This document shows, in pieces, positions 46,713 to 52,491 of a DNA stretch of 64,000 bases. Under the pieces are notes generated by a model, which saw nothing but the letters and a program-made list of their open reading frames with translations, made no database searches and was not told the DNA's origin. The translations under genes were made by a program, and so were the position numbers. Within the stretch, counting starts at the first letter, position 1. Each line of letters opens with the position of its first letter. The stretch comes from Lachnospiraceae bacterium. Its GTDB lineage: Bacteria; Bacillota; Clostridia; Lachnospirales; Lachnospiraceae. The stretch covers positions 1 through 64,000 of the forward strand of contig JAFUVF010000058.1 of the NCBI GenBank assembly GCA_017483735.1, read 5' to 3'.

Positions 46713-49087
46713 TGAGCTCTGAGGTGTGTATATATATCGGAATGGGCGTCCTCATTCTGCTTCTTCTTATCGTGACGGGGATACTGGCATTTCTGTACAA
46801 GCACAAGATGCCGGATTATTCTGAGCTTAAAAAGGCGATGTCGGAGCTTGAATATGCCAAAATGGAGAGCGAGAAGGCAAAGGCAAAGGCTCTGGAGGCA
46901 AACAGGGCAAAGAGCATATTCTTATCCCAAATGTCCCATGAGATACGCACTCCCATAAATGCCATATTGGGCTATAACGGTCTTATTCTGGACGATACGG
47001 CGGAGGTTTCTACGAGAGAATATGCGGGAAAGGTGGAGGCAGCGGCATACGGACTTTTGAATTTCTTTAAGGATGTGCTCGACCATGTGGGGGATGAGGA
47101 CGAGGCCGGTACGGAGGATTTCCGTGCAGAGAACTTTTTTGAGTCCATAACCAACGAAAAATACCGCAGCAAGGAAGCAAAGGAAGCCTATCATGACGCT
47201 GCAGCGGAAAAAGAGAATAAGCTTCTGTCCATACTCATAGTGGACGATACGGAGATGAATGTGGATCTGCTCAACAGGATTCTCGTAAAATTAGGCTATG
47301 TCACGGACTCTGCGGGGAACGGAAAGGAAGCCATAGAAAAGATAAAGGGTAACGACTATGATTTGATTTTTATGGATCATATGATGCCCGTAATGGACGG
47401 CGTGGAGGCGTTAAAGATAATAAGGGATGATAAGCTCTGCGAGAATACGCCCGTCGTGATGCTTACCGCCAATGCCCTTGAAGGAGAGTCCGAGAAGTAT
47501 ATAAGGGAAGGCTTTGACGCCTTTATCACAAAGCCCTTTACAGAGGAGACGATTCAGCAGACCCTTAAGAAATTCGTACCCATCCCGAACAGTATAAAGC
47601 GGACGGTCAGCGCCGCCTTTAAGGATGCCGAGTGGGTAACATCCCATCTTCCTTTTTTGTCGGAGTCGGCTTTTTCCAGATACTGTATGGAGGATATCAG
47701 CTTTTACTTGAAAATGATTTCCATTTATTCGGAGAGCGATGTAATGCAGCGGATAAAGCAGGCGTTCTCCGAAGATGATAAGGAGAGATACAGGGCGTAT
47801 CTGCGTGAACTCAGGGATATGACCGGCATTATCGGCGCCAGAGATTTGAGACATCTTGCAAGGGATATAGAAACCGCCTCGCATACGGGAAGCAGGCAGC
47901 AGCTTAACGCTATGCAAAAAAAGCTTGAAGATGAATACGGAGAGCTTTTGGAGAGGATACGTACAGCTCTTGCGGGGATTCGTTTTGAGGGCGAGTACCA
48001 GACAAGGCAGGTATCCGGCGACAGCTATGAAACTGCCGTAAAGACCGATATGCGGCCGAGAGTGCTGGTTGTGGATGATGATGATGTAATTGCGGATGCG
48101 GCGGCAAATATCCTGGGCTCAATCTATGATGTGGATATAGTATACAGCGGCAGGGAAGCCGTGAAATATGCGATGGATACGCCGCCGGCGCTCATACTTC
48201 TGGATATAATGATGCCCGATATGGACGGCTTTGAGGTAATAGAGCTTCTCAAAAAGAGCAGACGCACGTCCTCCATTCCGGTTGTGCTCCTTACGCAGGA
48301 TACGGACAGAGACACGGAGATAAAGGGCTTCAAGCTCGGCGTGCAGGATTATGTGAGAAAGCCCTTCGTCGCAGATGTGCTCTTGCAGCGCATACGACGT
48401 GTTATTGATTTGGATTATCTCCAGAGGTTCCTACAAAGAGAGGTTGCGGAGCAGACAAAGAAGGTGGGACATCTCTCGAAGGAGATTATGATAGCCCTGT
48501 CAAAGGCTGTGGATGCAAAGGATCATGCAACGGACGGTCACTCCCTAAGAGTTGCAAGGTATTCTGCGGAGATTGCAAGGCGTCTCGGGAAGTCCAGAAA
48601 AGAGCAGGATGATATCTACTCTATGGGACTTATCCATGATGTAGGCAAGCTTGCGGTGCACGAATCCATAATAAACAAGCCCGGGAGGCTGTCGGATGCG
48701 GAGTATGAGGAGATAAAGACACATACCACCATAGGCTATGACATACTCAAATCCATCACGGAGATGCCGGGACTTGCGGAGGCGGCACGCTGGCACCACG
48801 AAAGATATGACGGGAGAGGCTATCCTGACGGACTTGTGGGGGAGGATATACCGGAGACCGCACGTATCATATGCATTGCGGACTGCTATGATGCCATGAC
48901 CTCCAGAAGGTCATATTCAAAGATCAGAAATCAACAGACTGTACGTGAGGAGATAATCAAGAACAGCGGAACACAGTTTGACCCCCGCATTGCGGAGGTG
49001 CTGATATCAATGATAGATGACGACCCGGATTACAGCTTAAGTGAGCACACAGATAATGCTTCGGCGAAGGAAGGGGCTGCGCCTTGA
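46712..49087 (+). CDS. DHp-REC-HPt-like-REC-HD-GYP protein lacking an ATPase domain
   Basis: The 791-residue protein has one transmembrane helix (about 5-27) and a coiled coil leading to [15 protein letters not shown] (His about 75). No HATPase domain follows: after about 90 residues comes receiver 1 (about 173-290, Asp in LIFMDHMMPVMDG). Residues about 315-410 look like an HPt domain whose His is missing (LRELRDMTGIIGA in place of HxLKGxxxxIGA). Receiver 2 (about 450-570) has ILLDIMMPDMDG. The C-terminus is a full HD-GYP with HDVGK (about 641) and HHERYDGRGYPDG (about 694), the signature of c-di-GMP (or 3'3'-cGAMP) phosphodiesterases. Confidence 0.9.
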   Translation: MSSEVCIYIGMGVLILLLLIVTGILAFLYKHKMPDYSELKKAMSELEYAKMESEKAKAKALEANRAKSIFLSQMSHEIRTPINAILGYNGLILDDTAEVSTREYAGKVEAAAYGLLNFFKDVLDHVGDEDEAGTEDFRAENFFESITNEKYRSKEAKEAYHDAAAEKENKLLSILIVDDTEMNVDLLNRILVKLGYVTDSAGNGKEAIEKIKGNDYDLIFMDHMMPVMDGVEALKIIRDDKLCENTPVVMLTANALEGESEKYIREGFDAFITKPFTEETIQQTLKKFVPIPNSIKRTVSAAFKDAEWVTSHLPFLSESAFSRYCMEDISFYLKMISIYSESDVMQRIKQAFSEDDKERYRAYLRELRDMTGIIGARDLRHLARDIETASHTGSRQQLNAMQKKLEDEYGELLERIRTALAGIRFEGEYQTRQVSGDSYETAVKTDMRPRVLVVDDDDVIADAAANILGSIYDVDIVYSGREAVKYAMDTPPALILLDIMMPDMDGFEVIELLKKSRRTSSIPVVLLTQDTDRDTEIKGFKLGVQDYVRKPFVADVLLQRIRRVIDLDYLQRFLQREVAEQTKKVGHLSKEIMIALSKAVDAKDHATDGHSLRVARYSAEIARRLGKSRKEQDDIYSMGLIHDVGKLAVHESIINKPGRLSDAEYEEIKTHTTIGYDILKSITEMPGLAEAARWHHERYDGRGYPDGLVGEDIPETARIICIADCYDAMTSRRSYSKIRNQQTVREEIIKNSGTQFDPRIAEVLISMIDDDPDYSLSEHTDNASAKEGAAP

Positions 49088-50136
49088 GAGAAAACGGTAA
49101 GCTTTCGGTTTTAATTGCAGACGATTCGGAGATGGAGAGCATATTTCTCTCCGAGCTTTTCGCACGCATGGATATACGTCCCGATGTTGTCACGGGAGCT
49201 GAGGATTGCATCAAGATGTGTACGGTAAAAAACTATGATGTCATCCTCTATGACCTCATAATGCCCGGAGCCGACGCAAGGCTTATTATGGACAAGATAA
49301 AGAGTCTGCCGCACATAAAGGACAGGGCGACTCCTGTTATCGCCATGGGAGGCAATGAGGAGCTTGCGGATATTGAGGCTTTTTTGGAGGCAGGCTTTAA
49401 GAATATATTGAAAAAGCCTGTTTCCATGCCGATGCTGCAGGCGGCGCTTTACCTGTATCTGCCTGAGGACTGCTTTAGACTTATCGAAAAAGACGAGAAG
49501 CTGCTTGCAGATGGGGAGGATGCGAGACTTCCGGAGTGGCTTAGCGACCTGACGAAGCTGGATGCCGAGGAGGGTGTCAAAAACTGTGCCTCCGTGGAGG
49601 GATATTTGTCAGCCCTTGGTATCTTCTATAATTCTATCGGTGTGAAGGCTGATGAGATAAAGAAATACTATGATGACGGGGACTGGAAAGCATATACCAT
49701 AAAGGTGCATGCGCTTAAGAGCTCTGCAAGGCTTATAGGAGCAATGGAGCTTTCGGAGCTTGCAAAGAATCTGGAGGCAGCAGGAAATAATTTTGATGAG
49801 ACCACAATAAAGCTCGATACGGACAGACTTCTGTCAATGTACCGGGAATATGAGCGCATTCTTTCGCCTCTTGGCGAGGATAAGGGGGCATCCTCTGCGG
49901 AGTCAGGTGCGGAAGAGGATATGCGAGAGGTAATTCCTGCGAATGTTTTGGAGGATGCGGTAAAATCCCTCAAAGAATTTGCAGACAATTATGATTATGA
50001 GCTGGTGGAGATGGTGCTTAATTCCGTGAAGGAGTACAAACTTCCGGAAAGACCGAAGGAGCTCTTTGAGCGGATAGAAAAGCTCTTAATCAGCATGGAT
50101 TGGGACGAAATACGAAAGCTTCTGCAGAATGTGTGA
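49084..50136 (+). CDS. Receiver-HPt phosphorelay protein
   Basis: The 350-residue protein starts LSVLIADDSEMES and has a receiver (residues 5-125) with Asp in VILYDLIMPGAD and Lys in ILKKPVS; the usual Thr/Ser after the third strand is replaced by Met-Gly-Gly. An HPt domain follows with the phosphoacceptor His in IKVHALKSSARLIGA (about 208). A helical C-terminal segment of about 70 residues has no assigned role. The start is a TTG that overlaps the upstream stop, with AAGGAAGGGG before it. It probably links the hybrid kinase to the HD-GYP protein. Confidence 0.87.
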   Translation: MRENGKLSVLIADDSEMESIFLSELFARMDIRPDVVTGAEDCIKMCTVKNYDVILYDLIMPGADARLIMDKIKSLPHIKDRATPVIAMGGNEELADIEAFLEAGFKNILKKPVSMPMLQAALYLYLPEDCFRLIEKDEKLLADGEDARLPEWLSDLTKLDAEEGVKNCASVEGYLSALGIFYNSIGVKADEIKKYYDDGDWKAYTIKVHALKSSARLIGAMELSELAKNLEAAGNNFDETTIKLDTDRLLSMYREYERILSPLGEDKGASSAESGAEEDMREVIPANVLEDAVKSLKEFADNYDYELVEMVLNSVKEYKLPERPKELFERIEKLLISMDWDEIRKLLQNV

Positions 50137-52257
50137 TCAGGAGTTTAACAGATCAAACTGCCTGCGAATCTCGGGCGGAACCTTGGTACCTGAGTTTTCA
50201 AGCTTCGTTATAAGGTTCTGTATAGGCTTTAATTTCTGCGCAACCCGAACATTATGTGCTTGAATATATGCGACAAAAAGAGGATTGTCGCTTATCCTGT
50301 CACGTATTTCCTTGGAGAAGGGGCAGAACGTGAACAGAATCTCTCTCGTATTCTTGATGAGTCTGGGAGACCCCTGTGACTCATATTTTATGTAGGTAAA
50401 ATAATCTCCCACAAACACCTTTTTGAAGCTGTTGGAATTGTTTTTGAGAGCCGTCGATATCTTCTCCTTTGCCTCTGCGGAGAGAGAGGAATTTTTTCTG
50501 TAAAACTGCAGGAAATCACAGTAATTCGCCGTAAGGGAAGGATCTGTGACATCATTCCAATGTACACCCTGTTCGGTCTTGCACATCTCCCAACGGAATT
50601 CGGCAACCAGCTTTGTGAAAGTATCTTCGAGATTCTCCGTGTGGAAAATGGATATCAGCATACGTGCCGGTGTATTTCTCTTCTTTCCATCGATCTCCTG
50701 CCAAAGGGCTGCTCTGGAGCCCACATTTGGCATAAGGATGATATAGGGAAGCACCTCCTCGTCAAGATAGAAGGAGTTTATGCCGATATTCGGGTTGGAA
50801 TATACGGACTGTCTGCAGAATGCCTTGAAATCAATGCTTTTGATACGTGCTATCTCGTTGTTGAGCTTATTTGCATCCAGATACGCATGCTCCAATGCCT
50901 TTGTCACATTTTCGCTGTCAAACATAGGCACAAATGTGGTAATCCGCCCGAAGGTCACACGGTTTCCCGTGGAAAAAAGGTTCTTTATCTCGAACTTGAT
51001 CTTTTCAGTCTTATTTTCCAGAAGTCTTTTTTCATCCGCATCCTTTATCTCGCCGTTTCGCTTAAGATCCTTGAGATATGTGGGATAATCCATATCGAAT
51101 TCATTCTTTGACGGCATTACCTTGCCCTTGTAAATATTTAAGAGCCACTCATAGATGCTGATAATCCTTCCGTCCTTATCGGGAGAGTAGGAGGATGCAA
51201 TGGAGATGAGCTTGGAGGTATTTTCCTCCCCGGCAAGTTTTTCGCTCACAAAACCAAAGAGGAAGAACATTCTGACACCTAACGGAATGCTGTCCCAGCT
51301 CTTTCCGATGCTCTGTATGAAGCTTATGGTATATATCTCATAGAAATCCGTGGCGAGATCACGACGCAGCTTTCGTATATTATCGCCGCTTCCGTAGCGA
51401 TCCTCGTTTTTCATAAATTTATCCAGATTTTTGGTAAAGCGCTCGAAAAGCTCCGGCTCCAGCATTGCAAATTCTGAGATGGCATCAAGGCAGTTCCTCA
51501 CGGAATTATCGTCTATTCCGGTATCGGAGAAGAGCACCTCTCCGCCCGAGGCTGCCTTTGACTTCATTGAGTTGTAGGACATCATAAACTCTCTGGAGAT
51601 GCGCTTTAAATTGTCCAGATAGTCAAATATGGACGCAATGAAATCTCTGGTTTCGAGGGCATACGAATTGACGGTAAGCCCTATGCCCAGACCTATACTG
51701 GGGAGCGGGAAGAAGTCTTTCTTGAATTTCGCCTCGTATGTGAACAGCTCCTCTATAAAATCTTTGTGCCAGCCTCTGGTAGGGTCAAGCATTGCAGGGG
51801 GCATAAGAGAGTTAAGCTCTGGAAATTCTTTGGCAGTTCCACCTGCTGATATGGCTGCGATAGGATAATCAGCCTGCGCAGCCTTTATTCTGGCAAACTC
51901 CGAGCGAGCAAGCTCCATTGAATCAAGGGTTGCAATCTGCAGATTCCTTGCAAAGCGGACACAGCCCGACACAAGTGTCCCCAAAAGCTTGGGATTTGCC
52001 TTGAAAAGAGCCACAAGACTTGCCTCGGACTCATAGGGATAGGAAAAGAGAGTAACCTCATCCACCGCCTCATAGCCCAAGGTGTACATTGCACCGGGAT
52101 TTTCGCCGATACCGATAATGCTTCCCACGGGAAGATCTATGCTGCAATAATCGTTTGAGGCACGAACCATGCCCTTTACGACCACATCAAGCGTCTGTAC
52201 GATATTTTTTCTGCCTTCGAATATCGTGCTTCCGGCAGAGTAAACCTTATTTGCCAT
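50137..52257 (-). CDS. Large orphan protein with N-terminal cyclic-nucleotide-binding-like domain
   Basis: This 706-residue protein is convergent with the phosphorelay operon and divergent from the TRAP/GGDEF operon. Residues 1 to about 125 resemble a cNMP-binding (Crp-like) beta-roll: KVYSAGSTIFEGRKNI, VVVKGMVRAS, SIDLPVGSIIGIGEN and VTLFSYPYESEASLVALF followed by helices. The remaining about 580 residues are mostly helical, without a recognisable domain, signal or membrane segment; no DNA-binding motif is visible. GAGGGAA precedes the ATG. It may be a cyclic-nucleotide-responsive scaffold, given the cyclases nearby. I do not recognise the family beyond the N-terminus. Confidence 0.65.
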   Translation of the reverse strand: MANKVYSAGSTIFEGRKNIVQTLDVVVKGMVRASNDYCSIDLPVGSIIGIGENPGAMYTLGYEAVDEVTLFSYPYESEASLVALFKANPKLLGTLVSGCVRFARNLQIATLDSMELARSEFARIKAAQADYPIAAISAGGTAKEFPELNSLMPPAMLDPTRGWHKDFIEELFTYEAKFKKDFFPLPSIGLGIGLTVNSYALETRDFIASIFDYLDNLKRISREFMMSYNSMKSKAASGGEVLFSDTGIDDNSVRNCLDAISEFAMLEPELFERFTKNLDKFMKNEDRYGSGDNIRKLRRDLATDFYEIYTISFIQSIGKSWDSIPLGVRMFFLFGFVSEKLAGEENTSKLISIASSYSPDKDGRIISIYEWLLNIYKGKVMPSKNEFDMDYPTYLKDLKRNGEIKDADEKRLLENKTEKIKFEIKNLFSTGNRVTFGRITTFVPMFDSENVTKALEHAYLDANKLNNEIARIKSIDFKAFCRQSVYSNPNIGINSFYLDEEVLPYIILMPNVGSRAALWQEIDGKKRNTPARMLISIFHTENLEDTFTKLVAEFRWEMCKTEQGVHWNDVTDPSLTANYCDFLQFYRKNSSLSAEAKEKISTALKNNSNSFKKVFVGDYFTYIKYESQGSPRLIKNTREILFTFCPFSKEIRDRISDNPLFVAYIQAHNVRVAQKLKPIQNLITKLENSGTKVPPEIRRQFDLLNS

Positions 52258-52287
52258 GTTTTCCCTCGAAAGAATATTATTATGTAT

Positions 52288-52316
52288 ATTATATGCGGAA
52301 ATTTAATATAATTCAA
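52288..52316 (-). promoter_or_regulatory. Promoter of the orphan cNMP-like gene
   Basis: On the minus strand TTGAAT (52311-52316), a 17-bp spacer and TATAAT (52288-52293). It lies about 30 bp before the ATG at 52257. Confidence 0.7.
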
Positions 52317-52387
52317 ACACTAGATGATGTGTCTATGAGAGCTGCAGAACACAAATTTGCTGTTAAAGTGTCAAGGAATTAACAATG

Positions 52388-52416
52388 TTGTTAAAAAATA
52401 TATATTGTGCTATACT
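52388..52416 (+). promoter_or_regulatory. Promoter of the TRAP/GGDEF operon
   Basis: TTGTTA (52388-52393), 17 bp and TATACT (52411-52416), with a leader of about 70 nt to the ATG at 52492. It is divergent to the promoter at 52288-52316, so a shared regulator could act on both. Confidence 0.65.
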
Positions 52417-52491
52417 GAAATTTGCAAAAAACTATGAAAATACTTGAATAATATAAAAATTCGCAAAAATTACAATGGGGGGCACAGGTTA

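Follow-up and report, generated by a model that had tools for sequence, protein, structure and literature searches.

What does a long gene do that lies alone on its strand amongst genes of signal transduction? In the stretch of DNA analysed here (the window, 64,000 nucleotides of a Lachnospiraceae contig), an intact open reading frame of 706 codons, present as one copy in its own 3.2-Mb genome, is the sole minus-strand gene between an upstream plus-strand group encoding a histidine kinase, a response regulator and an Hpt protein, and a downstream plus-strand run encoding DctP, Cache-HAMP-GGDEF, metallo-hydrolase, GAF-HD-GYP, FecR and CHASE2-class III cyclase proteins. The gap at 52258-52443 carries promoter-like sites which point away from each other. 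The gene map and these sites thus bear out an earlier sequence-only reading, which saw here a lone minus-strand gene with divergent promoters between a phosphorelay and a cyclase operon. The other end of the gene abuts a convergent plus-strand neighbour (49084-50136) with 0 bp between them; as no base separates the two stop codons at 50136/50137, any terminator would have to lie within coding sequence. The coordinates of all features are collected in Table 1.

The sequence-only reading proposed that the product is a receptor for cyclic nucleotides made nearby. The reading preferred here, to which we give a probability of about 0.45 on a correlational link to flagella, is that in a single lineage of the flagellated Lachnospiraceae the protein assists or regulates flagellar motility from the cytoplasm, and that it combines a non-canonical Crp-like head with an output domain of no recognised type. 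Butyrivibrio and its motile relatives in the Lachnospiraceae are among the major bacteria of the gut and rumen, and flagellin is a principal antigen sensed by the host. An unannotated, conserved protein that tracks flagella, and whose output domain extends to Leptospira and has no known fold, would, if this role holds, offer an entry into how poorly tractable lineages build or regulate motility.

Table 1. Positions of the gene, its upstream signals and the parts of its product in the window
Feature	Position	Strand	Basis or remark
Whole gene, 706-aa protein	50137..52257	-	ATG 52257-52255, stop 50139-50137; family alignments
Residues 1-105, Crp/CNB-like beta-roll, degenerate phosphate-binding cassette	51943..52257	-	Pfam, PDB profile, AlphaFold model
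Residues 106-250, long-helix region	51508..51942	-	AlphaFold model; presumed dimerisation and linker
Residues 251-706, conserved C-terminal domain	50140..51507	-	No Pfam, NCBIfam or PDB-fold match
Residues 481-539, five-stranded stretch, ending ahead of FRW, a conserved motif at 554-556	50641..50817	-	Models, Leptospira comparison
Promoter-like TTGAAT-17-TATAAT	52288..52316	-	10/12 matches; 30 bp upstream of the start codon
Ribosome-binding-like GAGGG	52263..52267	-	Read from the upstream sequence

Relatives of the gene

The gene had been described as an orphan, a description that does not survive a search of related genomes. Of 150 Lachnospiraceae genomes sampled, a protein search found it in 46, each time as a single copy, and a profile search of the same 150 genomes returned the identical 46 carriers, with full-length or near full-length members; nine additional matches were ordinary CNB-only proteins. 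Relatives were also fetched from 80 named-species loci, mostly of Butyrivibrio and unnamed Lachnospiraceae, with 34-59% identity to the window protein in their best segments, and the C-terminal part extends to other Bacillota and to Leptospira. No family in Pfam or NCBIfam covers the 706-aa protein.

Domain organisation

The window protein alone gives no match to the Pfam family cNMP_binding, even at E<=1. The N-terminal beta-roll is nevertheless real, as 28 of the 37 sequences in alignment A2 match this family (best 6e-9), a PDB search with the family profile turns up CRP, FNR and channel CNB domains (best 3.5e-5), and the AlphaFold model (mean pLDDT 89.4) matches CRP with probability 1.00 in a Foldseek search of the PDB. 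The sequence-only reading, which looked to a predicted structure for just such a roll, was therefore right as to its presence but not its extent: the Crp-type sensor was put at about 125 residues, whereas the roll ends at about residue 105 and the remainder is part of a helix spanning residues 89-137.

The ligand-binding residues of the roll are degenerate. Position 58, aligned with Arg82 of CRP, is Y, F or C in alignment A1 (66 rows) and Y, H, F or G in A2 (37 rows), and is never R; the canonical R-[ST]-A signature with the arginine of the phosphate-binding cassette (PBC) was not found, and where an arginine occurs nearby, it does so in a minority of rows and at varying positions. As the PBC arginine is absent from all aligned members, canonical binding of cyclic nucleotides is unlikely; a non-canonical ligand of the head is possible. 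A comparable case is the CNBHD of EAG/KCNH channels, which likewise has a roll lacking the canonical ligand residues and is not known to bind cNMPs. KCNH1 was amongst the profile matches, although the 706-aa protein is soluble and has no channel domain.

Beyond the roll, the AlphaFold model has a second helix at residues 186-236 and a disordered hinge at 239-248. By analogy with the C-helix of CRP, this long-helix region is presumed to mediate dimerisation. The arrangement of an N-terminal beta-roll that leads into a long helix, together with the sequence and fold matches to CRP, recalls the CRP/FNR regulators (PF00027 roll and HTH). In contrast to these, the protein has a degenerate phosphate-binding cassette, an additional, unrelated domain of 455 residues into which the long helix runs, and no HTH, either in the sequence (Pfam, NCBIfam) or in the model. 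It also lacks TM segments, and is in the best reading cytoplasmic.

The C-terminal domain (residues 251-706) is the most conserved part of the protein, with a mean column identity of 62% in alignment A3, and is confidently predicted when modelled alone (pLDDT 90.7, pTM 0.88). Foldseek searches with this domain gave nothing significant against the PDB (best E 0.33) or against viral models (best E 0.21), and the whole chain gave only CNB matches or noise against the PDB. With no significant match in a fold library made up of the PDB and viral models, a new fold is possible. The sequence-only reading, which proposed structure prediction and profile searches of this part, had called the 580 residues beyond the roll helical, unrecognised and free of an HTH. 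Neither a known fold nor a known family turned up and the last two points hold, but the five strands at residues 481-539 show that the part is not wholly helical.

Outside the Lachnospiraceae, a stand-alone version of the C-terminal domain, of about 475 aa, occurs in other Bacillota families, and a hypothetical protein of Leptospira interrogans (WP_000465640.1, 707 aa) is 26.7% identical over residues 324-661 (E 2e-31). The Leptospira protein shares the C-terminal domain, but its N-terminal part differs in having a TM-like segment and lacking a CNB signature. From Lachnospiraceae to Leptospira, R515, WQ 519-520, RW 555-556, DY 618-619, E626, RL 632-633 and R638 are conserved or almost conserved. 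These residues, and the strong conservation of the domain in A3, could point to an enzyme of unknown type, with many invariant residues (Arg, Trp, Gln, Asp and Glu) grouped around an active site and a Crp-like roll that controls its activity or brings about dimerisation. However, searches of Pfam, NCBIfam and PDB folds gave no match to the domain, it has no recognisable catalytic motif and it lies in no metabolic neighbourhood, and we regard an enzyme as quite improbable. If the protein is instead a regulator of motility, as preferred here, the roll and the long helices would probably dimerise it, the roll serving as an input or protein-docking module that works without the canonical chemistry of cAMP binding, whilst the 455-residue C-terminal domain would be the output and would act on a protein partner rather than on DNA.

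A 350-kb L. interrogans replicon (NZ_CP020413.2, a plasmid in PLSDB) encodes at L186:5047-7170 a hypothetical protein of 707 aa with the homologous C-terminal domain; the corresponding place in NZ_CP043881.1 carries no annotation. Three unannotated human-faecal scaffolds filed as 'Bacteriophage sp.' (MT836426.1, L318; MT839620.1; MT835844.1) encode relatives; the record of the one that was inspected carries the mark UNVERIFIED. These scaffolds are probably host sequence filed as phage, and as the set viral_contigs contained no confirmed relative of the protein, a viral origin is unsupported.

The cyclase genes of the window

The setting of the gene in the window is not shared by its relatives. 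Across the 80 other loci there is no conserved operon partner and the flanking genes share no theme that sets them apart from genes further away; the cyclase neighbourhood is absent at every one of them, and a kinase-type cluster is found further out in a few. The recurrent neighbours vary by lineage (alaS, tmcAL with ackA, and ligA, named from their sequences and not all by family search) and are mostly variable housekeeping genes with no theme.

These observations bear on the proposal that the protein is a second-messenger receptor, the roll of which binds cAMP, cGMP, c-di-GMP or c-di-AMP made through the GGDEF and CHASE2-cyclase genes close by and thereby switches the C-terminal domain. A Crp-type roll in a protein encoded, in the window, less than 10 kb from GGDEF and class III cyclase genes would suggest as much, and GGDEF proteins account for 4 of 91 sampled neighbours. 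In the sample of 150 genomes, the raw co-occurrence with class III cyclases, the one cyclase class to which the test applied, is also above chance (p 2.6e-4; 18 of 46 carriers). However, class III cyclases are missing from 28 of the 46 carriers, and the association disappears amongst genomes positive for X4 (p 0.28), a 396-aa protein with two TM-like segments from the DUF5717-DUF5716-TPR cluster. Independent contrasts of the gene and class III cyclases on the tree likewise give no trend, with 2.3 pairs one way and 2.0 the other. Neither the expected co-occurrence with the cyclase operon nor the idea of a receptor for cAMP made nearby is thus upheld, given also the absence of the PBC arginine from all aligned members and the fact that the carriers track flagella, and we judge a second-messenger receptor quite unlikely. 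The case cautions against taking every Crp-like roll encoded near a cyclase operon for a cAMP receptor.

Flagella and the membrane protein X4

The preferred reading, that the protein serves flagellar motility, is based on the distribution of the gene. FliG is present in 45 of the 46 carriers, compared with 82 of the 150 genomes overall (Fisher 2.8e-14), and the sole FliG-negative carrier (G129) is a genome that is 86% complete and 6% contaminated, with its copy of the gene in a shortened frame. Lachnospiraceae FliG proteins fall into two groups by score (~1e-42 or better, and ~1e-37 to 1e-40); the carriers make up 45 of the 67 genomes in the higher-scoring group and none of the 15 in the other. 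Further carrier genomes that were checked, 10 from other families included, are all FliG-positive. As 22 of the 67 flagellates of the same lineage lack the gene, it is not essential for flagella, and across the phylum FliG is so widespread (329 of 398 genomes) that the comparison has no power to discriminate.

Such a pattern could also reflect shared ancestry and not function, if the protein belongs to the general housekeeping or envelope equipment of an ancestral clade that had flagella. A single copy per genome and neighbours (alaS, tmcAL, ligA) that are mostly housekeeping genes are in keeping with this, and on a 100-row DUF5716 tree of moderate support the phylogeny-aware sign test is not significant (median p 0.25-0.5), although with few informative pairs it is underpowered. 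On the same tree at least 19 changes are counted for the gene and at least 15 for FliG, never in opposite directions in independent pairs, yet there is no FliG-negative carrier bar the one incomplete genome, and the carriers from other Bacillota families are flagellated too. By our count on this moderately supported tree, some eight to ten FliG-negative branches are nested amongst FliG-positive rows and the gene is found in none of them; the chance of such nested absences is ~1e-4 to 1e-5 if the gene were independent of FliG at the lineage rate of 45/67. We find the reading of shared ancestry rather than function rather unlikely. A location in flagellar or chemotaxis operons was not found, beyond occasional proximity such as ~8 kb past fli/che genes in G440, and there were 0 matches to a FliA-type promoter in 111 upstream regions.

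For a regulator of flagellar motility, the candidate direct target would be the flagellar machinery or X4, which has the same phyletic pattern. X4 occurs in 65 genomes, 64 of them flagellated, nearly confined to one FliG group, and in 44 of the 46 carriers, the remaining two being without any DUF5716 match. The four-gene cluster of DUF5717, DUF5716, a TPR protein and X4 is seen at L131:6578-13398 and, in the genome of the window itself, at G000:C6, ~95.8-102.7 kb (L185), with X4 at ~101.5-102.7 kb; DUF5716 was detected in 145 of the 150 family genomes and in 0 of 14 control genomes. In two genomes of one lineage only (G066 and G138), the family gene directly follows the DUF5717-DUF5716-TPR-X4 run and is adjacent to X4. 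X4 was not found in carriers from other families, so that any partnership with it would be specific to Lachnospiraceae. Nothing relevant was found in the literature on DUF5717/DUF5716 or on this protein family.

A broader view, which we hold to be unlikely, is that residues 251-706 represent both the founding member of a new fold and a new flagellar regulatory module common to Clostridia and Leptospira, with exchangeable heads (Crp-like roll, membrane segment or none), working with X4 of the DUF5717/DUF5716 cluster in Lachnospiraceae. In one other Bacillota genome (G254, L143:8546-10664), a short gene judged by eye to be CheW-like lies divergently beside the gene for a stand-alone C-terminal domain.

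A known parallel for the narrower reading of a flagellar regulator is YcgR/PilZ (PF12945, PilZNR), the flagellar brake, a flagellum-linked soluble regulator which also has an N-terminal input domain; the 706-aa protein differs in having no PilZ domain. Replacement of YcgR by the protein is ruled out, as YcgR/PilZNR is present alongside it in 45 of the 46 carriers. Across the genomes, X4 and PilZNR/YcgR accompany the first FliG group (~1e-42 or better) almost one to one.
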